From positions 1-31,809 of IMG/VR virus record IMGVR_UViG_3300002835_000699: a stretch of 31,809 nucleotides of DNA; one strand, written 5' to 3'. Positions 13,068 through 27,175 of the stretch are shown here, in pieces. Position 1 is the first letter of the stretch. The number at the start of each line of letters is the position of its first letter. The notes under the pieces are model-generated. The model saw only the letters and a program-made list of their open reading frames with translations. It was not told the DNA's origin and did not search any database. The position numbers and the translations under genes are program-made. The DNA comes from a virus.

Positions 13068-13076
13068 GGAGAATAT

Positions 13077-13307: not shown

Positions 13308-13331
13308 CAGCTCAGTAACAGCGAAGTAAAT

Positions 13332-13363
13332 AATAGGACTGATTGATTCAGTCCTATTTTTTT
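13332..13363 (+). terminator. rho-independent terminator overlapping a promoter
   Basis: An 11-bp perfect stem (13332-13342 with 13348-13358), a 5-base loop (TTGAT) and a run of seven T (13357-13363). It ends the lysis-region transcript. The loop plus the first base of the 3' arm forms the -35 box of the next promoter. Confidence 0.88.
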
Positions 13364-13371
13364 CGTATAAT
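13343..13371 (+). promoter_or_regulatory. sigma70-type promoter for the dnaJ-def-clpA operon
   Basis: TTGATT (13343-13348), 17-base spacer, TATAAT (13366-13371). The expected start site is about 13378-13380, on the dnaJ ATG (13379), so the transcript may be leaderless. The -35 box lies in the terminator loop. Confidence 0.8.
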
Positions 13372-13378
13372 ATACTGT

Positions 13379-14218
13379 ATGGATTATTATAAAACATTAG
13401 GGTTAAACAGAGGGTCTTCGGAGTCAGACATTAAAAAGGCCTACCGAAGCCTCGCGATGAAACATCATCCAGATCGCGGAGGTGATGAAAAAAAATTCAA
13501 AGAGATAGAGGAGGCCTATCGGACACTAAGCGATCCTGAAAAGAAAAGACTAGTAGATGCCGGAGTCGATCCCAACTCTCAAAATCAAGGTCATAATTGG
13601 AATCAGGGACCGTTTGAATTTCATTTCGGCTCTGATAATATACACGATATTTTTAATCAATTCGGATTTGGATTCAATCAACGACCAATGAGAAGAAATA
13701 AATCTTTAAACATTACTATAGATGTCGCTCTGGAAGATGTACTATCTGGTAAGGAAATAAACGCAGAAGTCGGAATTCCGGGAGGAAAGAAAAAAGTAAT
13801 CAATATTCAAATCCCGCCTGGGATAGATAACGGTCAACAAATAAAATATTCAGGAATGGGCGACGATTCTATTCCTGACTTAAGGGCAGGTGATTTGATT
13901 GTTAACGTAAGAGTTAGACCGCATCCTGTGTTTAGAAGAGAGGGTGATGCTCTAGCCATTGAAAAAGTTATCAGTGTTTGGGATGCTATCCTCGGAACAA
14001 ATTTAAATATTTCAACTATAGATAACAAGATTATTACAATAACAATTCCACCCGGGACTCAGCCGGAAACCGTGTTAAGCTGTCGAGGGGAAGGATTACC
14101 TAATATGCGAACTAGGCAAAGGGGTAATCTGTTAATGAAAATAAAAATCGATATTCCAAGAAATCTCGATGCTGCACAGAAAAACCTAATAGAAACGATA
14201 AGAAAAAATGCAATTTAA
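13379..14218 (+). CDS. dnaJ: DnaJ/CbpA-type J-domain co-chaperone
   Basis: A 279-residue protein. The J domain covers residues 1-65 with the HPD motif at 30-32, which stimulates DnaK ATPase. A Gly/Phe-containing linker (about 70-105) follows, then the two beta-barrel substrate-binding domains. The zinc-finger C-x-x-C-x-G-x-G repeats of full DnaJ are missing, so this is the CbpA-like class B type. An upstream start would overlap the terminator; ATG 13379 gives the family opening M-D-Y-Y-K-T-L-G. No ribosome site precedes it. It would recruit host DnaK, for example in virion assembly. It overlaps def by 11 bases. Confidence 0.92.
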   Translation: MDYYKTLGLNRGSSESDIKKAYRSLAMKHHPDRGGDEKKFKEIEEAYRTLSDPEKKRLVDAGVDPNSQNQGHNWNQGPFEFHFGSDNIHDIFNQFGFGFNQRPMRRNKSLNITIDVALEDVLSGKEINAEVGIPGGKKKVINIQIPPGIDNGQQIKYSGMGDDSIPDLRAGDLIVNVRVRPHPVFRREGDALAIEKVISVWDAILGTNLNISTIDNKIITITIPPGTQPETVLSCRGEGLPNMRTRQRGNLLMKIKIDIPRNLDAAQKNLIETIRKNAI

Positions 14219-14702
14219 TCTAGGGCCGCACGAAAGTCTAATCGAAAAGAGCATAGGATGGGATTTTAATTCCGACGGCGACGCAGAATTAATTGAAAAA
14301 TTTATGTGCGAATTCATGATATCTAACAACGGAATAGGCCTTGCGGCCAATCAAATCAATATTGCTAAAAGAGTATTTGTTATAGGCAGCGAGAATATAC
14401 CAGGTTTTCCGAAACCATTTGCTGTGTTCAATCCTAAAATTATAGAATCTAGCAAAGAAACAGTTCTGGATAAAGAAGGATGTTTAAGTTATCCTGGACT
14501 GTTTTTAATGATTAAAAGACCTCAATGGGTCATTGCTGAATATCAAGACAGCAAAGGTAATATTAAAGAAATTAAAGTAGATGGGTATCTATCAAAATGT
14601 TTTCAACATGAATACGATCATCTAGATGGCGTATGTTTCGTTGACAAAGTATCTCAATTAAAGTTACAATTAGCTATGAAGAAATTAAGGAAATTTAAAT
14701 AA
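14208..14702 (+). CDS. def: peptide deformylase
   Basis: A 164-residue metal-dependent deformylase that removes the formyl group from new proteins. All three motifs are present: G-I-G-L-A-A-N-Q (42-49), E-G-C-L-S (90-94, metal ligand Cys92) and H-E-Y-D-H (134-138, two His ligands and catalytic Glu). Phage deformylases are known in marine phages and often lack the C-terminal helix of bacterial forms; here a short helix remains. It lies between dnaJ and clpA, overlapping the first and sharing the stop/start with the second (TAATG). Confidence 0.93.
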   Translation: MQFNLGPHESLIEKSIGWDFNSDGDAELIEKFMCEFMISNNGIGLAANQINIAKRVFVIGSENIPGFPKPFAVFNPKIIESSKETVLDKEGCLSYPGLFLMIKRPQWVIAEYQDSKGNIKEIKVDGYLSKCFQHEYDHLDGVCFVDKVSQLKLQLAMKKLRKFK

Positions 14703-17023
14703 TGATCGAACCTAGTAAGAGCCTTCAGGGTGTTTTCGAAACTGCTATCGAAGTAGCTAAATCGAATCAACACGAATACATAACACTAGAACATATTGTT
14801 TATAGCATAATGTTAGATGAAAATTCCTATAATCATCTAGAACAGTTCGGTGCTGATGTTAATTTTATTAAAAACAATTTAGAAAATTACGTCATTAACA
14901 ATCTCAGCGACATTAAGACCGAAGATGAAAAGCTAAGACCTAAAAAAACCAATTCGGTGGAACGAGTATTAAACAGATGTTTCTCACAGGTACTATTCAG
15001 TGGGCGTCAAAAAATTGAAATTATAGATGTTATTTTAAGTATTCTTAATGAAAAGAATTCTTTCGCTTTTTATTTTTTAAGCAAAGGCGGAGTCAGCAAA
15101 GAAAAATTCATCCAACACTTTCATGATCAACTCACAGGAGATGATGAAGAAAACGACAATGAGAACGCTGTAGTGAATCCAAATCAAATCGAAAAAATTA
15201 TCAATCAATTTTGTACTAATCTAAGCCTATTAGCTAAACAACGTAAAATAGATCCTGTAATTGGACGAGATGAAGAACTTGAAAACATTCAACTAATTTT
15301 GGCTCGCAGAAATAAGTGTAATGTACTAATGGTTGGCGAGCCAGGTGTAGGTAAGACTGCGATCGCAGAAGGTCTAGCACGTAAGATATTTGAAAAGAAA
15401 GTTCCTAAGTTTATTCAAGATCACCAGGTATATACACTAGACATTAGTTCGTTGTTAGCAGGATCTAAATATCGAGGAGACTTTGAAGAACGCATCAAGG
15501 CTGTATTAACCGCACTAGAAAGAAAAGGCAAGATTATTCTTTTCATTGATGAGGCACATATGATGCAAGGTGCGGGCGCAGCCAATCAATCAAGCAACGA
15601 TCTGGCCAACATTCTTAAACCTATATTGACCAAGGGTGTTATTAAACTGATAGCATCTACTACCTGGGAAGAATATCGCAAGCATTTTGAAAAGGATCGT
15701 GCGTTGATGCGCAGATTCCAACGTGTTACTATCGACGAACCGACCAGCGAAATTACCGTTAAGATCATCAAAGGAATTAAAAAATATTATGAAAAGCATC
15801 ATAATGTAAAGATTACAGAAGCAGCAATTGAACAAGCGGTTAAACTATCTGTGAAGTATATGCCAGACAAAAAACTTCCAGATAAGGCTATCGATATTAT
15901 TGATTGTGCATCTGCTAGATATAAACTTCGAGACGACGAAACAATGGAAGGTATTGAGCAGATCGTAGACGTTGAGCAGGTAACCTACGAACTTAGCAAG
16001 ATGATCAATATGCCTTTGGAAACTGTAGCGCAGAAAGAGAGCAAAAATCTTGCAGATCTAGAATCCGGAATGAAAGAAGTTGTCTACGGTCAGGATGGTG
16101 CTGTAGATAACTTATTAGATAAAATTTTTGTAGCACAGGCTGGTATGAAGTTACCTAATAAACCAGTTGGATGTTTCTTATTTGCAGGTCCGACGGGTTG
16201 CGGTAAAACAGAAACTGCTAAACAACTAAGTTTAAAAATGGGATTGCCGTTGGTTAGATTTGATATGAGTGAATATCAAGAAAAACACAGCGTCGCCAAA
16301 CTTATCGGTGCACCTCCAGGATATGTAGGTTACGAAGATAATGCTGGTCAACTTATCACGAAATTACAGGAAACACCAAATTGTGTTTTACTATTAGACG
16401 AAATTGAAAAAGCTCATCCGGATGTTACTAATATTCTATTACAATTTATGGACAACGGATTCGTTACTGGTAGCAATGGAAAAGTAGCAGATGGTAGGAA
16501 TACTATTTTGATTATGACCAGCAACTTAGGTGCTGCTGATAACGAAAAAAATACTATCGGTTTTGGAGATTTATCTCGAGAAGGGGAAGATGACAAAGCA
16601 GTTAAAAAATTCTTCGCTCCCGAATTCCGTAATAGATTAGATGCGACTATCAAGTTTACAAAATTATCACAAGAAACTGTGCGTAAGATCGTTGAAAAAT
16701 TTATTTCTGATTTAAATCAACAGATCAAAGAAAAGAACATCGAGATCGTCGCTGATCAATCTGTGATTAGCTGGTTAGCCGAAAAAGGCTACGACAGTAA
16801 GATGGGTGCAAGACCGTTAGCGAGATTGATTGATAACAAAATTAAATCTCCTCTAAGTAGACAAGTCCTATTCGGAGAGTTAAAAGAAGGCGGAAAGGCA
16901 GTCGTAAACTTAAACGGGAACGAAATTTCTTTCACATTTCTTAAAAAAGAAGTGACTCTGACTAAAGAACAGCGCAAGGCATTGAAAAGAGGGGAACCGA
17001 TCCCATTACTAGAAAATGACTAA
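14702..17023 (+). CDS. clpA: ClpA-type AAA+ unfoldase
   Basis: A 773-residue protein with ClpA order: an N-domain (about 1-145), an acidic linker, NBD1 with Walker A G-E-P-G-V-G-K-T (212-219) and Walker B I-I-L-F-I-D-E-A-H, then NBD2 with Walker A G-P-T-G-C-G-K-T near 496 and Walker B C-V-L-L-L-D-E-I-E. There is no ClpB-type middle coiled coil. Residues 619-621 are I-G-F in the loop that, in ClpA, docks to ClpP (IGL). It could therefore work with host ClpP to degrade chosen proteins; no phage clpP was seen here. It overlaps the next gene by 8 bases. Confidence 0.92.
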   Translation: MIEPSKSLQGVFETAIEVAKSNQHEYITLEHIVYSIMLDENSYNHLEQFGADVNFIKNNLENYVINNLSDIKTEDEKLRPKKTNSVERVLNRCFSQVLFSGRQKIEIIDVILSILNEKNSFAFYFLSKGGVSKEKFIQHFHDQLTGDDEENDNENAVVNPNQIEKIINQFCTNLSLLAKQRKIDPVIGRDEELENIQLILARRNKCNVLMVGEPGVGKTAIAEGLARKIFEKKVPKFIQDHQVYTLDISSLLAGSKYRGDFEERIKAVLTALERKGKIILFIDEAHMMQGAGAANQSSNDLANILKPILTKGVIKLIASTTWEEYRKHFEKDRALMRRFQRVTIDEPTSEITVKIIKGIKKYYEKHHNVKITEAAIEQAVKLSVKYMPDKKLPDKAIDIIDCASARYKLRDDETMEGIEQIVDVEQVTYELSKMINMPLETVAQKESKNLADLESGMKEVVYGQDGAVDNLLDKIFVAQAGMKLPNKPVGCFLFAGPTGCGKTETAKQLSLKMGLPLVRFDMSEYQEKHSVAKLIGAPPGYVGYEDNAGQLITKLQETPNCVLLLDEIEKAHPDVTNILLQFMDNGFVTGSNGKVADGRNTILIMTSNLGAADNEKNTIGFGDLSREGEDDKAVKKFFAPEFRNRLDATIKFTKLSQETVRKIVEKFISDLNQQIKEKNIEIVADQSVISWLAEKGYDSKMGARPLARLIDNKIKSPLSRQVLFGELKEGGKAVVNLNGNEISFTFLKKEVTLTKEQRKALKRGEPIPLLEND

Positions 17024-17690
17024 AATAAAATACACCAATAGAAAGTTCTATAATAAATGGGTATACAAGGTATCACTATTGATACCTGGTGTATCTATAA
17101 TGAGAATAAATTCTATTGAAAAATTGATTAATTTTGATAAAGAAGAAATGCCCGAAGGCAATGGTTATAGACAAAGTAGCCTGATCAAGGCCTACAGCAA
17201 TAAATCGTATATCAGTAAATTAGCATGTATTCTAAACTTAACTCAGAAAGATTCTTACGCTAAGAGGATCGAAAGCAATAGGATTGACATTTACACAAAT
17301 GACAAATCTATATGCGATAGTATTGAAAAAGAGCTAGCTGATAAGATTGTTTATATCTCAGTGCCTGATAACAATCAGTTAGATATTCTCAATACAGGAT
17401 TAATACCTGTACAAAAACTTCCACACGGATCGTACAAATATAAAGTTTATCTATTACCGCACAAACTTAAAAACGATATACAGGCTAAGAACAACTATCT
17501 GTCTTGGCTCAATCAACAAAGTCCTAAAATTTTAATTTCTGAAAAAGTTAAAAAGTGGTTTATAGATACCAATTGGAACTGGGATCGACGGTACATCTAT
17601 GTGCAGGACGAACATACCCTGCTATTACTGAAACTTAGATCTAGCGAATCTATGGGCAGAGTACACGAATATAGTATAGTCGATAAATAA
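17016..17690 (+). CDS. unknown conserved-looking protein
   Basis: A 224-residue protein overlapping the end of clpA. It is basic at the N-terminus (K-I-K-Y-T-N-R-K-F-Y-N-K-W) and has helix-strand patterns with I-Y-T-N-D-K-S-I-C, V-Y-L-L-P-H-K-L and W-N-W-D-R-R-Y-I-Y-V-Q-D near the C-terminus. There is no signal peptide, membrane helix, P-loop or metal site. Co-transcription with clpA makes an adaptor or substrate role worth testing, but nothing in the sequence shows it. Confidence 0.6.
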   Translation: MTKIKYTNRKFYNKWVYKVSLLIPGVSIMRINSIEKLINFDKEEMPEGNGYRQSSLIKAYSNKSYISKLACILNLTQKDSYAKRIESNRIDIYTNDKSICDSIEKELADKIVYISVPDNNQLDILNTGLIPVQKLPHGSYKYKVYLLPHKLKNDIQAKNNYLSWLNQQSPKILISEKVKKWFIDTNWNWDRRYIYVQDEHTLLLLKLRSSESMGRVHEYSIVDK

Positions 17691-17693
17691 TAG

Positions 17694-18068
17694 ATGTCCA
17701 ACGAAAACACTATTTTATTATCGTCTACTTCTGTTGAAACCTGGGATGGAACTTCGGGTATAGAGTATCAGTATAGCGATAAACAAAAGGCTGCAGGATA
17801 TCATAAAAAATCCTCAGCTCTACATACCGCTATATTTGAATTTGATAACTTTTTAGGCGATATCAAAATACAAGCGACATTAGAAACGCATCCATCTTCT
17901 AATGACTGGTTTGATGTGGAATACGATACTGGATCAGAAATACAGGCATTAGACAGTACTCCTTTGCTAACTAACGAAACACGTAACTTTACTGGTAATT
18001 TTGTGTGGATAAGAGCTGCATACAGGCTAATGCAAGGTACTATCACACAAGTTCGATATACTTACTAA
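17694..18068 (+). CDS. beta-rich putative virion protein
   Basis: A 124-residue protein beginning 3 bases after the previous stop, with no strong ribosome site. It is rich in Ser, Thr, aromatic residues and alternating beta patterns (H-T-A-I-F-E-F-D-N-F, D-W-F-D-V-E-Y-D, N-F-V-W-I-R-A-A-Y) and has no cysteine or catalytic motif. This composition resembles small head or tail decoration proteins. The GATAAATA at 17682-17689 overlaps the preceding stop codon and lies too close to be a convincing late promoter. Function unknown. Confidence 0.55.
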   Translation: MSNENTILLSSTSVETWDGTSGIEYQYSDKQKAAGYHKKSSALHTAIFEFDNFLGDIKIQATLETHPSSNDWFDVEYDTGSEIQALDSTPLLTNETRNFTGNFVWIRAAYRLMQGTITQVRYTY

Positions 18069-18080
18069 GCTTTAAAGATC

Positions 18081-18088
18081 GATAAATA
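18081..18088 (+). promoter_or_regulatory. T4-type late promoter (GATAAATA)
   Basis: GATAAATA sits in a true intergenic gap 24 bases before the ATG at 18113. Using the T4 geometry the start site is near 18094, inside the left arm of the hairpin at 18088-18114. It would drive the virion-protein genes that follow. Confidence 0.6.
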
Positions 18089-18114
18089 TAGTATCACCTT
18101 ACGGAAGATACTAT
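18088..18114 (+). promoter_or_regulatory. ribosome-site hairpin upstream of 18113
   Basis: ATAGTATC (18088-18095) pairs perfectly with GATACTAT (18107-18114). The 11-base loop holds most of the ribosome site (GGAA) and the right arm runs into the ATG. Read-through RNA would hide the start; RNA made from the late promoter would lack most of the left arm. Confidence 0.6.
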
Positions 18115-18844
18115 GAGAGACCTTTTAAACAAATTAACATCAATCGAAAACACTCAAGAGTCCATTGTTCCAGAACTAGGCGACTCGATCGGATTTAGTT
18201 TTAGTCCTGATTTAGAAATAGTTACTGAGGTTATCGGATTCACAGAAGACGGAATCGTTGTAGAATTAGACGAAACTGGCTTAAATCACTTAACTGAAAA
18301 CGGTGCTATAATGCTAGAAGGCGAACTGATCTACGAAGAAAAGCAAAAAGGCGTAGATGGTAAAGCCTGTTGGAAAGGCTACAAGCGTATGGGCACCAAA
18401 CAGAAAGGCGGCAAGACCGTAGACAACTGTGTTAAGATGGGCGAAGATCTTGACGAGAGCGGATTACAACGCTATACAGGTATTAAAAAATATGGCAAAG
18501 ACGGATTTGAAGCACTGCAGAAAGCAGGTCGTGAAGGTGCAGACGAGGAAGAAAAAGGACGCATCAAAGACAAGTATCTAAAAAAAGAAGATGCAGCAGT
18601 AGACGAAGCTGAATATCAAGGCCGTAAAGTACAGCTAGGCAAGAAAATGCCAGGTGATGTTAAGAAATCAAAAGTATATGTAAAGAATCCACAGGGTCGT
18701 GTTGTTAAAGTAAACTTTGGCGACAAGAAAATGCGTATTAAGAAATCAAATCCAGCACGTAGAAAGTCATTCCGTGCTCGTCATAATTGTGCGAATCCAG
18801 GTCCGCGTCATAAGGCAAGATACTGGTCTTGTAGGAGCTGGTAA
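18113..18844 (+). CDS. conserved virion-associated protein
   Basis: A 243-residue protein. The middle has C-W-K-G-Y-K-R-M-G-T-K-Q-K-G-G-K-T-V-D-N-C, and the basic C-terminus has K-V-N-F-G-D-K-K-M-R-I-K-K-S-N-P followed by R-A-R-H-N-C-A-N-P-G-P and A-R-Y-W-S-C-R-S-W. The paired Cys/His residues of the tail may bind metal. I recall both modules in many marine T4-like phages, usually joined to varied partners. The N-terminus resembles a short helical tag. Likely a head-associated or internal protein; the exact role is unknown. Confidence 0.65.
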   Translation: MRDLLNKLTSIENTQESIVPELGDSIGFSFSPDLEIVTEVIGFTEDGIVVELDETGLNHLTENGAIMLEGELIYEEKQKGVDGKACWKGYKRMGTKQKGGKTVDNCVKMGEDLDESGLQRYTGIKKYGKDGFEALQKAGREGADEEEKGRIKDKYLKKEDAAVDEAEYQGRKVQLGKKMPGDVKKSKVYVKNPQGRVVKVNFGDKKMRIKKSNPARRKSFRARHNCANPGPRHKARYWSCRSW

Positions 18845-19185
18845 TGTTATTAAGAGAAATGTTTTCACCAATCGGTGCTCCGAATGAAAAAGAGCAAGAT
18901 GTTGATTGGATCAATGATTTAAAATTCTTCATCGACAACGATGATACTGTTCTCAGTAAGAATTTTTTTCCTGCTATAAAAAAACACAGAGATTATGTAG
19001 GAAATCCTAATGTCTATAAGATTTATATAAGACCAATTGAAAGCAGTTGCGAATCATATTGTGAAAAATATCAAGTCAGTGATAGAGAGAAAAAATTTCC
19101 AAAAGAAGATTTGATCGGGTTGGCGAAAAAATTTGCCGAAGAACAAGAAATACATATCAAAAATAAAAATTACGATTCCGAATGA
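18844..19185 (+). CDS. small conserved phage protein
   Basis: A 113-residue protein starting on the preceding TAA (TAATG). It opens with M-L-L-R-E-M-F, similar to the short N-terminal tags of its neighbours, then has D-W-I-N-D-L-K-F-F-I-D and a mid-region Y-K-I-Y-I-R-P-I-E with two cysteines (S-S-C-E-S-Y-C). The C-terminus is a charged helix. No catalytic motif is seen. It overlaps the fusion gene that follows by ATGA and may be co-packaged with it. Confidence 0.6.
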   Translation: MLLREMFSPIGAPNEKEQDVDWINDLKFFIDNDDTVLSKNFFPAIKKHRDYVGNPNVYKIYIRPIESSCESYCEKYQVSDREKKFPKEDLIGLAKKFAEEQEIHIKNKNYDSE

Positions 19186-20720
19186 AACTTTTAGAACTTT
19201 TTGAAGCCGACACAAAACATATAACTTTCGTATTCGGAAGACTTAATCCCCCCACCATCGGACATAAACAGTTACTAGATACTGCTGCTAAAGTTGGAGG
19301 GGACTATAAAATATTTGTTAGTCCTAGTCAAGACAAAAAAGATAATCCATTAGATTATTCTACCAAAATTAAATTTATCAAAGCAATCATACCCGAACAC
19401 GCCAAGGCGATAGTCGAAGATCCCGGCCTTAATACTCCTGTAAAAATTGCCAGCTATCTATACGATCAAGGTTATAGAGCAGTAACATTTGTAGCTGGCA
19501 GTGATAGATTAGAATCTATGAAGAAGCTGCTAGAAATGTATAACGGAGTCGAAGGTAAGGCGCACGGGTATTATAAATTTGGTGTCTTAGATTTTAAAAG
19601 TAGTGGTGAAAGAGAAGATGGAGCAGAAGGTGTTGCAGGTATCAGCGCCAGTAGAGCACGATCTATGGCAGCCGGAGGCGACCTAGAAGGTTTTGCAGAG
19701 GCGACCGGGGCAGGACAATACGCAGAAAAACTTTACATCGCTGTAAGAAAAGGGATGGGAATAAACGAGTCGACTCTAGAAGCGAATCCTAATCAACAAA
19801 TATCAATATACAAATCAGATGGTAAAACTTATAGACAACAACCTATGCCATCCTTAGAAAAAGATCCTGTAGATGATGCTGATCCGTTAGACATTTTAAA
19901 AAATGAGCCGTACGAAACAGATTTCAGCAAGGAAGAATTAAAGAGAATCATTGCAAAAAACTTTGAAAAATTAAATGATCAGCAAAGAAAAGTGCTTAAA
20001 GCAAGATTCTGGCTCGGTATGACTTTAGATGAAGTTTCCGAAAAGATGAAATTATCTCCTGAAAGGATAAGGCAAATCGAAGCGAGGGCTATAAGAATCC
20101 TAAGACAGTCTTTAGGAGTAGAAAAAGAAAAAGATTATGTTGAATCAGTAGAAGAAGGTTGGAAAAGCAAAATGGCTGGTGCTGCCCTTGCTGCTGCGAA
20201 TCTATTAGGCAGTCCTGCTCAGGCAGCAGAAGAACCAATTAAACCTATTACTATTGCCTATGTAATGATAGACGGTGAGGTTAGAAAATATAATCTTGGT
20301 GATAAATTTGATAATGCCAAAGAGGCAGAAAAATTTATCAGTGGAGTTTTAGACAAGCAAGGTTTACAAGGTTATCAATTAGAAATCAAACACGGATATC
20401 CTAAAAAGAAAGAAGTCAAAGAAGCACCTATCGAGATGGACCCCACTGATCCTATGGATCCTATGATATATGGTGCTGGAGGAAATCCAGCTAAACTGAA
20501 ATATCGTATGATGAGAGCCGCTGGGCAAATCAAAGATTTAGCTAGTCGTGTAGATAATGCTAGCCCTAGCGAGTGGCAAACAATGGCTAGACAATTCGAT
20601 GAATTAAAAATGAATGTAGAACAAATACGTCATGCGTTAGAAGAACTTGCTAAAGTTCGTAAAAAAGGCGGAATACGTAGTCGCGGAATTGATCCTATGT
20701 TAGATCATATAGAGAAATAA
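19182..20720 (+). CDS. nucleotidyltransferase fused to sigma70 region-4 domain
   Basis: A 512-residue multidomain protein. Residues 1-10 (M-K-L-L-E-L-F-E-A-D) resemble the T4 capsid-targeting sequence. Residues 12-190 form an NMN-adenylyltransferase-like domain with T-I-G-H (25-28), V-A-G-S-D-R-L and the I-S-A-S-R-A-R motif (154-160). After a linker, residues 250-312 match sigma70 region 4: L-N-D-Q-Q-R-K-V-L, G-M-T-L-D-E-V-S, and S-P-E-R-I-R-Q-I-E-A-R-A, the -35-binding helix. An Ala-rich hydrophobic segment (330-349), a small domain and a helical C-terminus follow. The frame is continuous with no sign of error. It may be injected and touch host RNA polymerase; this is inference. Confidence 0.8.
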   Translation: MKLLELFEADTKHITFVFGRLNPPTIGHKQLLDTAAKVGGDYKIFVSPSQDKKDNPLDYSTKIKFIKAIIPEHAKAIVEDPGLNTPVKIASYLYDQGYRAVTFVAGSDRLESMKKLLEMYNGVEGKAHGYYKFGVLDFKSSGEREDGAEGVAGISASRARSMAAGGDLEGFAEATGAGQYAEKLYIAVRKGMGINESTLEANPNQQISIYKSDGKTYRQQPMPSLEKDPVDDADPLDILKNEPYETDFSKEELKRIIAKNFEKLNDQQRKVLKARFWLGMTLDEVSEKMKLSPERIRQIEARAIRILRQSLGVEKEKDYVESVEEGWKSKMAGAALAAANLLGSPAQAAEEPIKPITIAYVMIDGEVRKYNLGDKFDNAKEAEKFISGVLDKQGLQGYQLEIKHGYPKKKEVKEAPIEMDPTDPMDPMIYGAGGNPAKLKYRMMRAAGQIKDLASRVDNASPSEWQTMARQFDELKMNVEQIRHALEELAKVRKKGGIRSRGIDPMLDHIEK

Positions 20721-20721
20721 A

Positions 20722-21258
20722 ATGAAAGCAAAAGAATTTATACCAACAAGTAAGCCTAGAAACTTTGTAGCTAAGAATCAAAAAACTGCAGGCGCAGGCG
20801 CCCATCGTGATAAGAAAAAAGAGCAGAAACAAGGTTACGAAAAACATAAAAGCAAAGATGTTACTGAAACCGAATTAAGAGATAAAGAAGATTTAATTGC
20901 AAAGCGAAAAGCACTTCAAGACTTGCAAATGGATCCTATTGCGTCGCAAGACAAAGAAATCAAACAGGCTATAATTCAACGTAAAAACGATTTAGAAAAA
21001 GAAGCAAAGAGTAAAGGTATGACAGAAAGAATTCGAGATCCGGAAGATTGGGATGAGGGTAACACTGAGCCTCCGAATAATTTTGCTGTTTACATCAACG
21101 GTAAGAAATGGAAAGTATTTCAAGGTCGTGGTCAATATGCCGACGACTATCGTGAAAAACAACACTATCAACAATTAAAAGATTGGGCTCGTAAAAAATC
21201 AGAAGCCACAGGTAAAAAGTGGGAAGTATACGTTACTGGCGAACCTGCTACAGCATAA
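20722..21258 (+). CDS. conserved basic virion-type protein
   Basis: A 178-residue protein opening with M-K-A-K-E-F-I, close to the T4 capsid-targeting pattern. The N-terminal half is highly charged and probably disordered (Lys, Gln and Glu rich). The C-terminal 65 residues are compact: N-F-A-V-Y-I-N-G-K-K-W-K-V-F-Q-G-R-G, then Y-A-D-D-Y-R-E-K and a W-E-V-Y-V-T-G end. I recall this C-terminal module in many marine T4-like phages. Function unknown; an internal head protein is plausible. Confidence 0.65.
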   Translation: MKAKEFIPTSKPRNFVAKNQKTAGAGAHRDKKKEQKQGYEKHKSKDVTETELRDKEDLIAKRKALQDLQMDPIASQDKEIKQAIIQRKNDLEKEAKSKGMTERIRDPEDWDEGNTEPPNNFAVYINGKKWKVFQGRGQYADDYREKQHYQQLKDWARKKSEATGKKWEVYVTGEPATA

Positions 21259-21476
21259 TGGAACTTAACGAATTAAAACGTCTTGCTGGTATTACAGAAT
21301 TCAAAGGCTATCAACCCTATGAAGGTAGTAATATAAGTATTACTGGTAACGAAAAGCGTCAGATAGAAAAAAAGCATAACATACAGCCCGGAACTCCTGA
21401 ATGGTTTCAACTGTGGTTTAGTTTGCCTTACATGACTGGCGAGAAACCAGTAGGAGATAAAAAATGGTTGAGATAA
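21258..21476 (+). CDS. small conserved phage protein
   Basis: A 72-residue protein; ATG 21258 shares its A with the previous stop (TAATG), which I prefer over an upstream in-frame ATG buried in that gene. It begins [15 protein letters not shown] and ends in [17 protein letters not shown]. The N-terminal helix again resembles the tags of its neighbours. It overlaps the Fe-S carrier gene by 13 bases. Function unknown. Confidence 0.6.
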
Positions 21477-21790
21477 GTGAATCAGCAAAAGCAAAAGTTA
21501 TAGATCTTCTTTTAGAAGAAAATAATCCTAATTTAAAATTAAGAACATTTGTCCAAGGTGGAGGATGCTCAGGATTTCAATACGGATTTACTTTTGACGA
21601 AGAACAAAATGAGGACGATTTTGAAATAGCATTAGATGATAAATGGAAAGTAGTTGTCGATGCTATGAGTATGCAGTACATGACTGGTGCTATTATAGAT
21701 TATACAGAAGATTTATCTGGAGCGAATTTTAGCATAAAGAATCCCAATGCACAGACAACCTGTGGTTGTGGATCAAGTTTTTCGGTGTAA
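21464..21790 (+). CDS. A-type iron-sulfur carrier (IscA/ErpA family)
   Basis: A 108-residue protein with the full family signature: G-G-G-C-S-G-F (Cys35) and C-G-C-G (Cys100 and Cys102) close to the C-terminus. The spacing of 64 residues between Cys35 and Cys100 matches the usual range. These proteins carry Fe-S clusters from the scaffold to target enzymes. Its presence within a group of virion-type genes is odd and suggests a host-derived gene. It may mature the phage ferredoxin at 7698 or host targets; which one cannot be told from sequence. Confidence 0.92.
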
Positions 21791-21793
21791 CAC

Positions 21794-22126
21794 ATGAGAG
21801 CTCACGAATTTGTCACTGAGAAAAAGCGTAAGAAACATAAATCTCGTCAGGCTGCATACGGGCCAGGACCGTTTGGCGGGTATGGTTATTATGCAGGCTA
21901 CAGCGGAGATTCAAGCGGTGATAATGGCGGTGGAGAAAGCGTAGAGCACGAAAACTTTGCCGATGGCAAAGTTAAGGGTAAAAGTCGCCCTGGTCGTGTA
22001 AAACGTTCAGGGGCTAGTTGCAACGGAAGTGTAACAGACTTACGTAAACGTGCCAAAAATGCATCTGGTGAGAAAGCTAAAATGTATCACTGGTGCGCTA
22101 ATATGAAATCTGGACGTAATAAATAA
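21794..22126 (+). CDS. conserved basic virion-type protein
   Basis: A 110-residue protein opening M-R-A-H-E-F-V-T-E-K-K, the clearest match here to the T4 IPIII targeting sequence, with V-T-E as a possible protease site. A Gly/Tyr-rich disordered middle (G-P-F-G-G-Y-G-Y-Y) precedes a compact basic C-terminus: G-A-S-C-N-G-S-V-T-D-L-R-K-R-A-K, then K-M-Y-H-W-C-A-N-M-K-S-G. I recall this C-terminal module in marine T4-like phages. It is probably a packaged head protein; no enzymatic motif is visible. Confidence 0.65.
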   Translation: MRAHEFVTEKKRKKHKSRQAAYGPGPFGGYGYYAGYSGDSSGDNGGGESVEHENFADGKVKGKSRPGRVKRSGASCNGSVTDLRKRAKNASGEKAKMYHWCANMKSGRNK

Positions 22127-22132
22127 TAGATT

Positions 22133-22390
22133 ATGAAATTAAAAGAAATATTAGAATCTGCTACTGTAGGAGCCACAAACGCCGGAAATGTAGGCACTGT
22201 GATTAACCCGCATATTAGCCCCGGAAAAGCCAGAGGTAAGAAAAGCTACACAGGTAGTCCAGGGAAAAGCGGAACTAAAGCTCCGCCGGAACCTAAGGTT
22301 TCTCAACCAAAAAACAAAGACGGTACAGCTAAAAACGCCTTAGATACACCAACTAGCTTGTTCGGTGAAGGTAATTTCATACAGAGATAA
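22133..22390 (+). CDS. small disordered conserved protein
   Basis: An 85-residue protein opening M-K-L-K-E-I-L-E-S-A, a targeting-like helix with I-L-E as a possible protease site. The rest is rich in Gly, Pro, Ser, Lys and Asn (S-P-G-K-A-R-G-K-K-S-Y-T-G-S-P-G, then P-K-V-S-Q-P-K-N-K-D-G) and has no predicted fold. I recall near-identical small proteins in T4-like marine phages. Probably an internal or head-associated component. Confidence 0.6.
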   Translation: MKLKEILESATVGATNAGNVGTVINPHISPGKARGKKSYTGSPGKSGTKAPPEPKVSQPKNKDGTAKNALDTPTSLFGEGNFIQR

Positions 22391-22397
22391 ATATAAT

Positions 22398-22706
22398 ATG
22401 GACCTCGAAAAACCAAGACCAGACGATCACGAAGCAAAAATGGCAAGAGCCGATTGCTATAAATTGGCAGAATATTCTGCCAAATTATTTCAAATGATCA
22501 AAGAGGGTGAAGAATTAGACGGCTGGGTACAGGCTAAAATTACCAAAGCTGCTGATTATATTTCTAGCGTATATCATTACTTAGAGTATGAAAAAATGTC
22601 TAGAGAATCGATTAATTTAGGCCCTAGAGAATTCGAAGAAGCTGTTCAGGCTAAAGTAAAAGATAGCCTTACAGAACAATGGTTAAACAAAAAACAAGGA
22701 AACTGA
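22398..22706 (+). CDS. small helical conserved protein
   Basis: A 102-residue protein. I chose ATG 22398, 7 bases after the previous stop, since the longer frame would overlap that gene. It is helical and charged: H-E-A-K-M-A-R-A-D-C-Y-K-L-A-E-Y, then L-D-G-W-V-Q-A-K-I-T-K-A-A-D-Y-I-S-S-V-Y-H-Y-L. No ribosome site is evident upstream, where AT-rich GATAAATATAAT occurs. I recall the pattern from marine phage genomes without an assigned role. Confidence 0.6.
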   Translation: MDLEKPRPDDHEAKMARADCYKLAEYSAKLFQMIKEGEELDGWVQAKITKAADYISSVYHYLEYEKMSRESINLGPREFEEAVQAKVKDSLTEQWLNKKQGN

Positions 22707-22707
22707 A

Positions 22708-23778
22708 ATGGATTTCAAATCACTTATTTCTAAAATCAGCTCATTAGACACACCAATTGAGTCAAAACCTGCTGCAGAGGCACAGGAAGTTCTAAGATTA
22801 GACGAAGACACAGAATTTAGAGTTCTGGCTGGTCTTACTCCTCTTACTGAATCTTTGATTGCTGAAAAGAAATTAACTAAAGCAGAAAAAGATAAAAAAG
22901 AAGAAGTAGTAAAGTCTATGAAAAAAGACAAAGACGGATTTGAAAAGAGATACGGTAAGCGAGGCGAAGAAGTTATGCATGCCACAGCTACTAAGGTCGC
23001 TAAGAAAAAAGAAGAATCTGTTGAAGGCGACGACGAAGCATTAAACGAATACCAATCTAAAGATGGTAAGTATGTTCACAAAGGCAAATACGGTTCAGAT
23101 TACGACGGCAGCGATCATCAAGACGACCCTAAGAAAAAAGAAAAATCCGGTATGACTGGTGCTGAAAGACGCGAACAAAAATCTAAAGATAAAGAACAAG
23201 ACAAAGCTTCTAAAGATTATGAAAAGAAACATGGTAAAGGTTCAGTGACTCGTCATAAGATGGAAGGCGCTGAATTAGACAAAGAAAATTTCCAAAAGAA
23301 ATTTGATTCTATGGTAGAAGCTAAGAAAGAAAAAATGGCTAAGAAAGATAAGAAGATGGACGAAGGTTCGAAACCTGATTTCTTAGATCTTGACAAAGAC
23401 GGCAACAAGAAAGAGCCAATGAAAAAAGCTGCTGCCGACAAAGGCGGAGATAAAAAAGACAGTGGTAAGAAAGGTATGAGTGCTGCACAGGCTAAGTACT
23501 TTGGAAAGAAAAACGAATCTGTCTCAACTTCAAAGAAAGTTGTTGCCGAATCCGTTGAAGCATCGTCAAACTTTAGAGAACTAATGAAACTTGTTATCGA
23601 AAGCGGCGGTCAGCAAGCTATCGATCCGTTAGACAAGGCATTGTTTGATTGGGCTACTAGAGTAGCACAGAGAAAGTTTACAGAATCAACTAAAGCAGAA
23701 GTTTATGCTGGCCTAGTATACGAAAGAATGGGTGGCCGTTTTGAAATGTACGATGTGTTAAGTGAAGAACAAAAATAA
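22708..23778 (+). CDS. highly charged virion core-like protein
   Basis: A 356-residue Lys/Glu/Asp-rich protein with AAGGAAA before its ATG. The N-terminal helix (M-D-F-K-S-L-I-S-K-I) may be a targeting tag. Residues 65-270 are low-complexity and likely disordered, and include an EF-hand-like D-L-D-K-D-G-N segment and G-M-S-A-A-Q-A-K-Y-F-G-K-K. The last 70 residues form a compact domain (F-R-E-L-M-K-L-V-I-E, P-L-D-K-A-L-F-D-W-A). Scaffold or internal-head proteins of T4 are similarly charged, so a packaged or core role is likely. A terminator follows. Confidence 0.6.
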   Translation: MDFKSLISKISSLDTPIESKPAAEAQEVLRLDEDTEFRVLAGLTPLTESLIAEKKLTKAEKDKKEEVVKSMKKDKDGFEKRYGKRGEEVMHATATKVAKKKEESVEGDDEALNEYQSKDGKYVHKGKYGSDYDGSDHQDDPKKKEKSGMTGAERREQKSKDKEQDKASKDYEKKHGKGSVTRHKMEGAELDKENFQKKFDSMVEAKKEKMAKKDKKMDEGSKPDFLDLDKDGNKKEPMKKAAADKGGDKKDSGKKGMSAAQAKYFGKKNESVSTSKKVVAESVEASSNFRELMKLVIESGGQQAIDPLDKALFDWATRVAQRKFTESTKAEVYAGLVYERMGGRFEMYDVLSEEQK

Positions 23779-23793
23779 ATTTAAGTTGGAAAT

Positions 23794-23826
23794 AAAAAGC
23801 CAGTCCTAGGTTGACTGGCTTTTTTT
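23794..23826 (+). terminator. rho-independent terminator overlapping a promoter
   Basis: A 12-bp perfect stem (23794-23805 with 23813-23824), a 7-base loop (CTAGGTT) and a T-run to 23826. It ends the virion-gene transcript. The -35 box of the next promoter spans the loop and the 3' arm. Confidence 0.9.
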
Positions 23827-23839
23827 ATGACTATATAAT
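23811..23839 (+). promoter_or_regulatory. sigma70-type promoter for dsbA-like gene
   Basis: TTGACT (23811-23816), 17-base spacer, TATAAT (23834-23839). The start site is expected near 23846, followed by AAGGAG (23848-23853) and ATG 23862. The -35 box is inside the preceding terminator. Confidence 0.82.
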
Positions 23840-23861
23840 TGTCTTATAAGGAGAATAGTAT

Positions 23862-24128
23862 ATGGCAAAAATGTATGGTCCTGAAGAACGAGCTAAACTA
23901 GAACGTCTCATCAATGAAGGTTCAAATGTTCTACGAGAAGTAGAGGATCTTCAAGAGGGTCTTAAAGAAACAGTTAAAGCAGTAGCTGAAGAACTACAAG
24001 TAAAACCTAGTATTATCAATAAGGCAATTAAGATTGCACACAAAGATAATTGGAAATCTCATGAAGAAGAATGGGATGAAATTGAAATGATCTTAGGTGT
24101 TACTAAACATTTGCCCGAGAAGGATTAA
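23862..24128 (+). CDS. dsbA: DsbA-like double-stranded DNA-binding protein
   Basis: An 88-residue all-helical protein, the same length as T4 DsbA. The second half resembles it: a helix with E-E-L-Q-V-K-P-S-I-I-N-K-A-I, then I-A-H-K-D-N-W (T4 has L-Y-H-K-D-N-R) and an acidic helix E-E-E-W-D-E-I-E. T4 DsbA binds double-stranded DNA, including near late promoters. It is not the disulphide enzyme of the same name: no cysteines are present. Driven by the promoter at 23811. Confidence 0.7.
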   Translation: MAKMYGPEERAKLERLINEGSNVLREVEDLQEGLKETVKAVAEELQVKPSIINKAIKIAHKDNWKSHEEEWDEIEMILGVTKHLPEKD

Positions 24129-24416
24129 ATGATTAATGAATTATTTAGACCTACACTAGAATGGATAAGAGATGATTGGCGTAGTCACCCGTTCCGTTTT
24201 ATGGTGGAGATTGTCGCATGGGCTATATCGATTGGATGTAGCATCACTATGGCGCTCACTGTCCCCAATCCACCTTTACTTATTTTGTACCCTATTTGGA
24301 TCGCTGGCTGTGCCATGTATGCTTGGGCTGCTCATACTAGGAAATCGTTTGGCATGTTGGCTAACTACCTGTTATTGGTAACCATAGATACCGTCGGATT
24401 AATCCGTATGTTATAA
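24129..24416 (+). CDS. conserved multi-pass membrane protein
   Basis: A 95-residue protein starting directly after the previous stop. It has about three hydrophobic helices (residues 24-46, 48-68 and 74-94) after an N-terminal segment I-R-D-D-W-R-S-H-P-F-R-F. Internal features include N-P-P-L-L-I-L-Y-P-I-W-I and N-Y-L-L-L-V-T-I-D-T-V-G-L-I-R-M-L. I recall close relatives in cyanophages and other marine T4-like phages, where the gene sits near replication genes. Function unknown; a transporter of small molecules has not been shown. Confidence 0.65.
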   Translation: MINELFRPTLEWIRDDWRSHPFRFMVEIVAWAISIGCSITMALTVPNPPLLILYPIWIAGCAMYAWAAHTRKSFGMLANYLLLVTIDTVGLIRML

Positions 24417-24419
24417 ATA
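24412..24419 (+). promoter_or_regulatory. T4-type late promoter motif (TATAAATA)
   Basis: An exact TATAAATA overlaps the stop of the membrane-protein gene, 78 bases before the polymerase start. The transcript would start near 24425 and include the hairpin at 24468. A late promoter before a replication gene is unexpected, so it may be chance or a second, late source of polymerase mRNA. Confidence 0.4.
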
Positions 24420-24467
24420 AATCTGTAAAAGATGGTAGGCGTGGCCATAAACCGCACATTTGGTATT

Positions 24468-24492
24468 TGCGAGCCCTAAGTCGCATATGGAG
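24468..24492 (+). promoter_or_regulatory. possible polymerase autoregulatory operator and ribosome site
   Basis: TGCGA (24468-24472) pairs with TCGCA (24481-24485) around an 8-base loop GCCCTAAG, and GGAG (24489-24492) follows 3 bases later. T4 gp43 represses its own translation by binding a 5-bp stem with an 8-base loop next to the ribosome site. The geometry matches; the loop sequence differs from T4. Confidence 0.5.
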
Positions 24493-24497
24493 AAAAA

Positions 24498-27167
24498 TTG
24501 AGTTACGTTGACGCATTCTATGATCGCAACGACGATATTATTCGTATCGTCGAACGAGACAGCAAAGGTAATAGGCATTATAAAGACTATCCTGCCAAAC
24601 ACCTTTTTTATTACAAAGATTCCAAAGGCAAGTTTACTTCTATACACGGAGATCCGTTGAATCGAGTTTCCTGTAAGAATATAAAAGAACTACGGAAAGA
24701 ACTTGCAATCCATTCAAATAAAAAACTATACGAAAGTGATATTAATCCAATCTATCGCTGCCTAGAAGATAACTATCTCAATGCGGATGCACCTAAGCTA
24801 AATGTAGCCTGGTTCGATATTGAGGTGGACTTTGATCCAGAACGTGGCTACGCATCACCGGAAGATGCATTTATGCCTATCACTGCTATCGCTGTTCACT
24901 TACAATGGATGGACACTATGGTTTGTTTGGCAATTCCGCCAAAAACTATTTCAATGGCAGAGGCAAAACGTCAAGTTGAAGAATTTCCTAATACTATGCT
25001 GTTTGATAACGAAGCAGATATGTTAGACACATTCCTAGATCTAATTGAAGATGCAGATGTATTGTCGGGATGGAACAGCGAAGGTTTTGATATTCCCTAT
25101 ACCGTCAATAGAGTAACAAAAGTTTTAAGCAAAGAAGATACTCGTAGATTTTGTCTATGGAATCAGTTCCCAAAAAAGAGAGAATATGAAAAGTACGGAA
25201 AGGCGGCTGTTACTTATGATCTTGTTGGTCGTGTTCATCTAGATAGTCTCGAGTTGTACCGCAAATACACCTATGAAGAACGCCATACATACAGACTTGA
25301 TGCTATCGGAGAAATGGAGATAGGCGAGAACAAGACTGTCTATGAAGGTACATTGGATCAACTTTATAACAATGACTTTAAAAAGTTTATCGAATATAAC
25401 AGACAGGACTGTGCATTGCTAGATAAACTTGATAAGAAGTTAAAGTTTATGGATCTTGCTAATACACTGGCACACGAATGTACAGTATTATTACAGACTA
25501 CTATGGGTGCGGTCGCCGTTACAGAACAAGCTATTATTAACGAAGCACATAAGCGTGGTATGATTGTGCCTAATCGTATCGGTCGTGACGAAAGTGTTAA
25601 TACCCAGGCAGCAGGGGCATATGTTGCCTATCCTAAAAAAGGTATTCACGAATGGATTGGTTCGTTGGATATTAACTCGCTGTATCCTTCAGCGATTCGT
25701 GCGTTGAATATGGGGCCGGAAACTATCGTAGGTCAACTACGTGCAGATGGAACTAAGGCATATATCGAAGCAGAAATGGCTAAAGGAAAATCATTTGCAT
25801 CAGCGTGGGAAGGCGTATTCGGATCACTAGAATATACCGCAGTAATGAATCGTGAGGTAGGAAGAGAAATCACTATCGACTGGGAGGACGGAGAAAATGA
25901 TACTCTAAGTGCTGCTCAGATCTACGATTTGATATTTGAAAGTAATCAGCCTTGGATACTGTCAGCAAATGGAACTATCTTCACCTACGAAAAGGAAGGT
26001 ATCATTCCTGGTTTGCTCAAGCGTTGGTACGCTGAACGTAAAGAAATGCAGGCTAAACTTAAAGAATGTATTTCCGCAGGAAACAAAATTGAAGAAGAAT
26101 ACTGGGATAAGCGTCAGCTAGTTAAGAAAATTAACTTGAACAGCTTGTATGGTGCTATTCTCAACCCGGGCTGTAGATTCTTTGATAATAGAATCGGTCA
26201 ATCCACAACTCTTACTGGTAGAGCCATTGCTAAACATATGGCATCAAAAGTTAACGAAATTATCACCGGTGAATATGATCACGTTGGAAAATCTATCATA
26301 TACGGTGACACAGACTCTTGTTACTTCTCAGCGTATACTACGTTGAAGAAGGATATTGAGAAGAATACGATTCCTTGGTCTAAGGAATCTGTTGTTGAAC
26401 TTTATGATACTATAGGAGAAACTGTTAATGGAACATTCATTAGATTCATGCAAGACGCCTTCCATGTCCCAAAATCCCGAGGAGAGGTCATTAAAGCGGG
26501 TCGCGAGATTGTTGCTTCCAAAGGACTATTCATTACAAAGAAACGATACGCAGTACTTTACTACGACAAAGAAGGAAAACGGACAGATGTTGACGGCAAA
26601 CCAGGGAAGATCAAAGCTATGGGGCTCGATCTCAAACGTTCAGATACCCCGGTTGTTATCCAAGAATTCTTAAGTAATGTTCTAGAAAGAGTCCTTACAG
26701 GACAAAGCAAAGAAGAAGTACTAGGATACATTACTGATTTCCGTACAGAATTTAAAACACGCCCTGGTTGGGAGAAAGGTTCGCCTAAGCGAGCTAACAA
26801 TATCACAGAATATGCTGCCAAAGAAAAGAAAGCCGGTAAGGCCAATATGCCTGGGCACGTTCGTGCTAGCCTAAATTGGAATACTTTAAAGCGTATGATG
26901 GATGACAAATATAGTATGCATATCACTGACGGTGCTAAGGTTATCGTCTGCAAAATTAAAGATAATCCAATGGCTTATACATCAGTGGCTTACCCTGTAG
27001 ATGAATTAAGACTTCCACAATGGTTCAAAGATCTGCCATTTGACGATGCCGAGATGGAAAATACAGTTATCGACGAAAAGCTAGAAAATCTTATTGGTGT
27101 TTTGGAATGGGACATCAGTTCAACAAGGTCGGATAACACATTCAGCAAATTGTTTGATTTTGAGTGA
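24498..27167 (+). CDS. 43: B-family DNA polymerase (gp43-like)
   Basis: An 889-residue replicative polymerase. I place the start at TTG 24498, five bases after GGAG; the only close ATG upstream (24487) is out of frame and stops at once. Exonuclease motifs: W-F-D-I-E-V (ExoI), G-W-N-S-E-G-F-D-I-P-Y (ExoII), Y-N-R-Q-D-C (ExoIII). Polymerase motifs: D-I-N-S-L-Y-P-S (A), K-I-N-L-N-S-L-Y-G-A (B) and Y-G-D-T-D-S (C), then K-K-R-Y. It copies the phage genome with the gp45 clamp and gp44/62 loader. The C-terminal S-K-L-F-D-F-E resembles the gp45-binding tail of T4-type polymerases. Confidence 0.97.
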   Translation: MSYVDAFYDRNDDIIRIVERDSKGNRHYKDYPAKHLFYYKDSKGKFTSIHGDPLNRVSCKNIKELRKELAIHSNKKLYESDINPIYRCLEDNYLNADAPKLNVAWFDIEVDFDPERGYASPEDAFMPITAIAVHLQWMDTMVCLAIPPKTISMAEAKRQVEEFPNTMLFDNEADMLDTFLDLIEDADVLSGWNSEGFDIPYTVNRVTKVLSKEDTRRFCLWNQFPKKREYEKYGKAAVTYDLVGRVHLDSLELYRKYTYEERHTYRLDAIGEMEIGENKTVYEGTLDQLYNNDFKKFIEYNRQDCALLDKLDKKLKFMDLANTLAHECTVLLQTTMGAVAVTEQAIINEAHKRGMIVPNRIGRDESVNTQAAGAYVAYPKKGIHEWIGSLDINSLYPSAIRALNMGPETIVGQLRADGTKAYIEAEMAKGKSFASAWEGVFGSLEYTAVMNREVGREITIDWEDGENDTLSAAQIYDLIFESNQPWILSANGTIFTYEKEGIIPGLLKRWYAERKEMQAKLKECISAGNKIEEEYWDKRQLVKKINLNSLYGAILNPGCRFFDNRIGQSTTLTGRAIAKHMASKVNEIITGEYDHVGKSIIYGDTDSCYFSAYTTLKKDIEKNTIPWSKESVVELYDTIGETVNGTFIRFMQDAFHVPKSRGEVIKAGREIVASKGLFITKKRYAVLYYDKEGKRTDVDGKPGKIKAMGLDLKRSDTPVVIQEFLSNVLERVLTGQSKEEVLGYITDFRTEFKTRPGWEKGSPKRANNITEYAAKEKKAGKANMPGHVRASLNWNTLKRMMDDKYSMHITDGAKVIVCKIKDNPMAYTSVAYPVDELRLPQWFKDLPFDDAEMENTVIDEKLENLIGVLEWDISSTRSDNTFSKLFDFE

Positions 27168-27175
27168 TTTCTAGG

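Follow-up and report, generated by a model that had tools for sequence, protein, structure and literature searches.

Why would a virus place sigma70 region 4 behind a nucleotidyltransferase, in a protein whose first residues resemble those of packaged head proteins? This question is raised by a 31.8-kb virus record (IMG/VR record IMGVR_UViG_3300002835_000699), whose full 31,809 nucleotides we call the window, and by an uninterrupted 512-amino-acid (aa) frame (57.2 kDa) on its plus strand at 19182-20720. An earlier reading made from the DNA letters alone (the sequence-only reading) had suggested that region 4 serves to bring a packaged enzyme to host RNA polymerase or to -35 DNA. Our comparisons with related loci revealed instead that region 4 belongs to a string of modules and can be exchanged, and that the chain is very probably a modular precursor of the head-protein type.

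To evaluate the parts of this chain, we combined profile searches with structure prediction. AlphaFold2, supplied with 20 aligned sequences, yielded four folded units, namely the nucleotidyltransferase domain (NT; residues 11-193; predicted local distance difference test score, pLDDT, about 90), sigma region 4 (250-311; about 80; four helices) and two further modules, A (355-405; about 75) and B (436-494; about 70), which are separated by linkers with pLDDT <50 at residues 197-233, 314-352 and 408-434. NT matched Pfam CTP_transf_like at residues 17-115 (E 8.2e-5; 23.3 bits, just over the cut-off of 21) and PHROG cytidyltransferase (phrog_3041/395) at residues 6-212 (E 7.6e-45). The motifs of this superfamily are of the HxGH and ISxTxxR types; the window has both, as TIGH from residue 25, with T for the first H, and as ISASRAR from residue 154, with S for T, the latter lying where pLDDT dips to 50-70 (residues 141-160). 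These motifs and a Rossmann-like fold place the domain in the nucleotidyltransferase (CTP_transf_like/NMNAT-like) superfamily. VIA-align and Foldseek, run on the whole-chain model, had an effective coverage of residues 11-195, and VIA-align favoured no one substrate, placing PPAT (Z 13.8), NadD (13.5) and NMNAT (12.7) structures within about 1 Z of each other (range 13.8 to 12, including NadM). An NT-superfamily domain (phrog_3041, E 3.1e-15) was also seen in a 1133-aa chain of a related locus (L040:3817-7215), together with a KxDG ligase-like motif (by eye) and modules B-A-C, C being a further module of such strings.

Region 4 was recognised by Pfam Sigma70_r4 at residues 262-309 (E 4.5e-14; 52.1 bits, the cut-off being 24.1) and by a PHROG sigma-factor profile (phrog_351) at residues 229-321 (E 5e-13). 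A sequence search of the PDB returned sigma factors (region 4) for all matches with E <0.04, the weaker rows including unrelated proteins, and Foldseek linked the region-4 model to sigma region-4 structures with weak E-values (best 0.005), among them 1ku7, sigmaA region 4 on -35 DNA (E 0.08; template modelling score 0.65 by target). In line with the sequence-only reading, no other sigma region was detected: Pfam found neither Sigma70_r2 nor Sigma70_r3 in the 512-aa protein at E <= 0.1, while the same scan detected Sigma70_r2 and r4 in two isolated-phage proteins. A full sigma factor was ruled out on these grounds: the protein has the region-4 helix-turn-helix of the Sigma70 family and shows no region 2, which recognises -10 and binds core polymerase. 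The two isolate members of phrog_351 that we scanned (Vibrio phage 144E46.1 and Aeromonas phage phiA8-29, both Ackermannviridae) carry regions 2 and 4, so the window's match to this profile need signify only a common region 4, and we rejected phrog_351/phrog_1740 as the sign of a known module family.

Comparison with the E. coli RpoD sequence, using residue roles given in PMC4943231 and PMC2613000, revealed that 8 of the 16 residues listed as -35 contacts are kept in the window, among them the equivalents of E585, R586, R588 and Q589 (PERIRQIE starts at residue 293, within the recognition helix), as are three of the six listed as core contacts (R562, F563 and L598). Across ten modules compared, some of them closely related, R562, R586, R588 and R596 were present in every one, F563 was always F or Y, and E585, Q589 and L598 were each kept in nine.

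To assess how these parts are combined elsewhere, we compared the 51 IMG/VR loci that matched the 512-aa protein, together with loci found by searching with the region-4 module (L numbers in both cases). The same fusion stands on a separate contig (L001) with 3 base differences, a second locus at a contig end (L002) covers region 4 (from residue 257) through B, and NT shares a chain with region 4 in L093 and, where the NT part is recognised by BLASTP only, in L117. The sequence-only reading had allowed that two genes might have been joined by a sequencing error; the recurrence of the fusion in L001, L093 and L117, together with L002, makes this unlikely. Among the relatives, NT is followed by varying strings (NT-A-B-C, NT-B-A-C, NT-B, NT-B-C, NT-A-B, NT-C and, with S4 for the region-4 module, NT-S4-A-B), the last order being seen only in the window and L001. 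Among 28 distinct frames that bear NT, region 4 is present in three, namely those of the window, of L001, which nearly duplicates it, and of L093. Against L006, the window differs by a single in-frame 375-bp block, with 82.0% DNA identity across the aligned rest, and the protein alignment places the gap identically for L006, L008 and L010. The GC content of this block is 0.34, as compared with 0.41 and 0.39 in its flanks. In three loci (L024, L025 and L038) module A sits in the next gene, not in the NT gene, behind a [VI]xE/G site (the slash marks a putative cut, here and below), and the chain that carries a module seems not to matter, as would be expected if the chains are cut.

The region-4 module itself travels widely, and a signature, YNPDGxTYR..MPxLD, precedes it in all seven architectures (Table), with Y, G, T, Y, M, P and D invariant in ten sequences. 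Nine other modules are 30-47% identical to the window's and keep both recognition helix and signature. When 225 loci were scanned for the signature, region 4 followed in ten of ten sequence contexts, including one (L093, L094 and L120) where it was missed by pattern and found by Pfam in L093. Six of the 29 sequences with S4 alone at E <= 1e-4 bear the signature (L054, L057, L092, L094, L097 and L099), and the other 23 are without it and resemble, by eye, ordinary sigma or regulator genes. The partners vary. The first domain of L117/L118 shares 29% identity with L040's NT domain (BLASTP, E 5e-24) and has no Pfam or PHROG nucleotidyltransferase match of its own. Other chains carry a domain called peptidase-like from an HExxH motif seen by eye and weak profile matches, and such proteins with S4 (L057) and without it (L206) have similar flanks. 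An HExxH peptidase-like domain was also observed beside a HAD/polynucleotide-kinase-like domain (phrog_415, E 5e-6 in L211) and head-type modules at L211:3254-5098 and in L218. PF04545 was detected in 4 of 29 related records (G numbers), all of them carriers already known when included. Among isolated phages, the window's region 4 had no match at E <= 1e-5 (seven records at E <= 10, best E 1). Searches with stretches of L057, L117 and L119 matched 123, 157 and 101 records, and among the matches listed many were annotated as sigma factor or unannotated, three being inspected, so that an isolated phage may yet carry the module.

Evaluating the borders of these modules further, we found that they hold sites resembling those cut by gp21, the T4-type prohead protease. 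In 28 proteins, module ends and starts were set by anchors, which left 38 distinct junction spacers no longer than 45 aa. Of these, 37 contain [ILVFYM]xE[AGSNDT], where windows of equal length taken from the same chains would give 4.0, and 33 contain [ILV]xE[AGS] (expected 2.2); the lone exception to the former, A to z in L029, reads VNE/L. When the E of the motif was exchanged for D, K, Q or S, 8, 0, 1 and 0 spacers matched (expected 4.2, 3.2, 1.8 and 2.6), and a control with a polar residue at P3 gave 6 (expected 7.1). In a blurrier test, based on BLAST ends rather than anchors, 59 of the 134 breaks lay close to [ILV]xE, with 21.2 expected. Genome-wide, sites in G010 number 63 in 3481 aa of a hand-picked head/cassette set, in which gp22 and gp23 represent substrate types already known, versus 435 in 59385 aa elsewhere (18.1 versus 7.3 per 1000 residues), with 28.3 (standard deviation, sd, 4.9) in shuffles of the set; in G001, picked proteins hold 27 sites in 1867 aa versus 224 in 25779, with 15.7 (sd 3.7) in shuffles. 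The protease itself, as Peptidase_S77 (gp21), was found in 4 of the 29 related records, a set that does not include the window's own, and these four (G010, G015, G022 and G027; 135-219 kb) are among the five longest, G004 (147 kb) being the exception. In G010, moreover, the inferred cut segment of gp23 (so labelled from a tblastn match to S-CREM2 gp23, E 5e-42), LAE/SATAGATSAGNV (LAE/SATAG), recurs in a small cassette gene as MKIRDILE/SATAGATSAGNI (ILE/SATAG), and this gene has a counterpart in the window at 22133-22390.

The start of the chain would suit a head protein as well. MKLLELFE/A and the starts of relatives resemble, by pattern, a capsid-targeting sequence ending at a gp21-type site, in keeping with the sequence-only reading; such starts are common among the relatives, and M1, L3, L6, F7 and E8 are nearly invariant in the alignment. 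The idea that the protein is packaged is further supported by published virion proteomes. ORF154 of cyanophage S-CREM2 is an NT homologue, 38% identical to the window's NT, which starts MKNFSSFLTE/A and in which a PHROG scan found no region 4 match; virion mass spectrometry recovered 3 unique peptides of ORF154, 5 of ORF155, 6 of ORF156 and 7 of ORF160 (PMC10665884), and an NMNAT was detected in S-SCSM1 virions (PMC9602691). The modules of S-CREM2 ORF160 match the gene that follows the NT gene in G010 (59% over 78 aa). As a separate observation, residues 17-70 of ORF160 (L115:11843-12736) resemble part of the major head protein (phrog_696, E 4.8e-10) and are followed by cassette modules. The NT gene lies 5 kb from gp23 in S-CREM2 and about 88 kb from it in G010. 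For T4, internal proteins are described as sitting within the packaged DNA and contacting it (PMC3012670), and Alt as a packaged enzyme that acts on host RNA polymerase (PMC9026906).

Taken together, these observations lead us to propose, tentatively and as something a little short of probable, that the window encodes a head-packaged modular precursor that releases an injected sigma fragment. The short N-terminal sequence would carry the chain into the prohead core, where a gp21-type prohead protease would cut after Glu at hydrophobic-x-E/small, where the targeting sequence ends as well as at the disordered linkers. Cutting during head maturation would free the nucleotidyltransferase (20 kDa), the sigma region-4 protein (15 kDa) and both A and B, and these cargoes would remain inside the head alongside the DNA and pass into the cell upon infection. 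Free region 4 would most likely dock on the beta-flap tip of the host's RNA polymerase, on -35 DNA or on both, where it would perturb host sigma70 region-4 function or favour early phage promoters; occupancy of the beta flap could weaken -35-dependent host promoters, comparable to the remodelling of sigma70 region 4 by AsiA (PMC2613000).

The steps differ in strength. The analysis directly shows the domains and their folds, the modularity, the motifs at the junctions, and gp21 and gp55 in some of the relatives. Packaging, for which the virion proteomes of homologues speak, we infer, as we do cleavage and injection; cutting at the junctions is somewhat more likely than not. Action of region 4 on RNA polymerase is the weakest step, a conjecture that may or may not hold, with doubt slightly the stronger. 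Nor did the strong -35 boxes that the sequence-only reading had ascribed to the phage's promoters bear out: window 12000-31809 holds 50 promoter-like sites versus 56.6 (sd 7.8) in shuffles, and this absence of an excess of -35/-10 sites neither helps nor excludes the early-promoter option. A broader generalisation is more speculative still, and we offer it as a possibility that is rather more likely to fail than to hold: head polyproteins across the T4 superfamily would carry interchangeable effectors, any domain flanked by E sites would be injected cargo, and free region 4, as the first injected sigma fragment, would compete with host sigma70 for the beta flap and -35 DNA moments after infection.

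Several points weigh against the proposed precursor and its mechanism. The virion evidence comes from homologues in other phages, the S-CREM2 authors themselves caution that abundant proteins may co-purify through carry-over in caesium chloride (CsCl) purification (PMC10665884), and the junction cuts are predicted. Prohead protease sites of T4 have I or L at P3. The narrower [IL]xE[AGS] was present in 17 of the 38 spacers (1.1 expected), many sites having V, Y or F at P3; the spacers are related rather than independent (13 junction kinds, 7 downstream modules), and both motif and anchors were picked by eye after inspection. The window protein alone is only mildly enriched (7 sites versus 4.7 in shuffles), with two of its seven sites inside the NT domain (residues 79 and 173), so the placement of sites counts for more than their number. 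Peptidase_S77 was absent from 25 of the 29 records, which are mostly short and yet include G001 (86 kb) and G004 (147 kb), and at the DNA level L008 and L010, which are less close to the window, did not align with one clean gap. Finally, RpoD R584 reads -31 and E585 reads -33 (PMC4943231, PMC2613000), and the R584 equivalent is P in five of the ten modules, including the window's, and R in just three. By its residues, the window's region 4 is well kept and may have an altered sequence preference.

Other explanations of region 4 were weighed against the same evidence. It could be a generic DNA-binding domain that keeps internal head proteins attached to packaged DNA or assists in assembling the core, and take no part in transcription. 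Its helix-turn-helix, in which the recognition helix is kept, would suit this, as would the contacts of T4 internal proteins with packaged DNA (PMC3012670); it is nonetheless unlikely, as the core RNA polymerase-binding residues that are kept (R562, F563 as F/Y, L598) would be unneeded for DNA binding alone, even if some of these residues are needed for the fold or touch DNA as well. Alternatively, the chain could stay intact, with region 4 as the tether by which the nucleotidyltransferase is held on RNA polymerase or promoter DNA to modify its target on arrival, for which T4 Alt offers the precedent of a packaged enzyme working on RNA polymerase (PMC9026906). NT and region 4 do share a chain in three separate groups (window/L001, L093 and L117, the last with its BLASTP-only NT), yet the module also stands beside a HExxH peptidase-like domain or no recognised enzyme, 25 of 28 distinct NT-bearing frames go without it, and long disordered linkers with protease-like sites flank it on both sides. 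Because the module is self-contained, has varied partners, occurs in so few of these frames and is bordered by such sites, enzyme and region 4 are more likely separate cargoes than a tethered enzyme. The steering role given to region 4 by the sequence-only reading thus finds no support in that form, and we give the tether a low probability.

Sigma-like gp55 lacks region 4. A late-made accessory, in which region 4 joins gp55 as a split sigma or acts as a gp33-like co-factor and is packaged incidentally, would fit the gp55-like gene of G010 (tblastn E 4.5e-10, 31% over 98 aa), which stands alone as the sequence-only reading had said of T4 phages, and the position of gp55 directly upstream of the NT gene in S-CREM2. 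Under this account the capsid-targeting-like start and the protease-like sites would be pointless, and the module is missing from nearly all NT-bearing frames, which makes it improbable. Least probable of all is a functionless bacterial sigma fragment, decaying or acquired by chance as filler in a tolerant head protein, since its lower GC and its differing presence among close relatives are outweighed by nine other modules that keep recognition helix and signature across seven architectures.

The precursor thus remains our preferred reading. The window's family B DNA polymerase is closest to that of Sinorhizobium phage Phosso (51% identity), megablast of window 12000-24000 found no match in the phage collection, and a host search by one pattern scan of genome contigs matched 17 stretches, none confirmed as a relative. 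Upstream of the cassette, window 14702-17023 encodes a 773-aa ClpA/B-like AAA+ chaperone. Inside the head-protein cassette, window 21464-21790 encodes an A-type iron-sulphur carrier (Fe-S_biosyn, E 7.7e-16), to which a gene of G001 at 47213-47533 is related (28% over 108 aa). The G010 counterpart of window 21794-22126 carries a HAD-like domain (by eye) that the window gene is without, and several adjacent genes on the G001 contig at 60-86 kb (L103-L104) look radical SAM-type-like, by eye from N-termini only.

Table. Features of the window, followed by the architectures in which the region-4 module (S4) was found. NT, nucleotidyltransferase domain; ORF, open reading frame; AF2, AlphaFold2; slashes mark putative cuts.
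Feature	Position	Strand	Basis
Whole gene, modular precursor NT - sigma region 4 - A - B	19182..20720	+	ORF, Pfam, AF2
Capsid-targeting-like N-terminus MKLLELFE, putative cut before A9	19182..19205	+	Sequence; similar starts in relatives
NT (CTP_transf_like), residues 9-196, predicted fragment 20.3 kDa	19206..19769	+	Pfam, PHROG, AF2, Foldseek, VIA-align
375-bp block, in-frame absence in relative L006	19763..20137	+	Pairwise DNA alignment; protein alignment
Sigma region-4 module, residues 197-321, predicted fragment 14.7 kDa, between INE/S and YVE/S	19770..20144	+	Alignments
Module signature YKSDGKTYRQQPMPSLEKDPVDDA, residues 210-233	19809..19880	+	Alignment; scan of 225 loci
Folded region 4, residues 250-311, four helices	19929..20114	+	AF2; Pfam
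-35 recognition helix, residues 293-304	20058..20093	+	Alignment to RpoD
Module A, residues 326-414, small alpha/beta fold, 9.7 kDa	20157..20423	+	AF2; next-gene copies in L024, L025, L038
Module B, residues 415-512, helical, 11.1 kDa	20424..20717	+	AF2; order A-B or B-A in relatives
Neighbouring gene with CWKGYKRMGTK-type exchangeable module	18113..18844	+	phrog_4359; same module type after region 4 in L092-L094, L117
Neighbouring gene, N-terminus DUF7230-like (just below Pfam cut-off)	20722..21258	+	Counterpart in L024/L025/L038 bears module A
Short gene MKLKEILE/SATVGATNAGNV..., segment common with inferred gp23 cut site of G010	22133..22390	+	Sequence comparison
Architecture 1, window/L001/L002: NT-S4-A-B; signature lies off contig in L002			
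Architecture 2, L092-L094: NT (in L093), other parts, S4, CWKGY module			
Architecture 3, L117/L118: NT-like domain, S4, CWKGY module			
Architecture 4, L119: S4 ahead of glycine-rich parts, 5' end cut off			
Architecture 5, L054/L057/L099: HExxH peptidase-like domain, S4, further modules			
Architecture 6, L097/L098: short protein, targeting-like start, S4			
Architecture 7, L198: targeting-like start, unrecognised part, S4 at end			

Comparison with known systems shows which parts of this proposal are familiar, as T4 internal proteins, Alt and polyvalent proteins are already known kinds. Like the T4 internal proteins and Alt, the window protein has a short N-terminal targeting-like sequence ending in hydrophobic-x-E and would be DNA-associated head cargo, and like Alt it would act on host RNA polymerase; unlike them, it has several folded cargoes with sites at their junctions, whereas the passages on T4 describe one cargo behind one short propeptide, and a sigma region 4 among its cargoes where Alt is an ADP-ribosyltransferase. 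The polyvalent proteins of phages and conjugative elements likewise hold several domains of disparate activity within one chain, strung together and shuffled, and are thought to be injected with the DNA (PMC5512222). Release there is attributed to embedded peptidases, in contrast to the head-maturation protease that is the likely cutter here, and region 4 is a cargo here; a word search of the main text of that paper returned sigma 0 times, cyanophage 0 times and prohead once, within a reference.

Closer in sequence, the NMNAT-like/cytidyltransferase virion protein ORF154 of S-CREM2 shares the NT family, a capsid-targeting-like start and presence in virions, and differs in having no region 4 match by PHROG and a different C-terminal module; the S-SCSM1 NMNAT is alike, by its published description, in having been detected in virions (PMC9602691). 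Phage sigma70 factors (phrog_351; Vibrio phage 144E46.1, Aeromonas phage phiA8-29) have the same kind of region 4, together with a region 2 and with neither an NT domain nor a capsid-targeting-like start. Among the papers listed by searches of the open-licence PMC literature, subscription journals and preprints lying outside the search, none was on sigma region 4 in a virion polyprotein. Within the reach of these searches two features are new, namely that region 4 travels as a cargo and that protease-like sites stand where the modules of a multi-cargo chain meet. If our reading is true, the internal-protein idea of T4 and the polyvalent-protein idea would merge into a plug-in delivery system with the head-maturation protease as its cutter, which could account for 'hypothetical' modules in T4-like virion proteomes and would allow injected effectors to be predicted by a rule read from sequence. 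Takeover of RNA polymerase would then have a new route in an injected region 4, beside modification by Alt, remodelling of region 4 by AsiA, and gp33/gp55.

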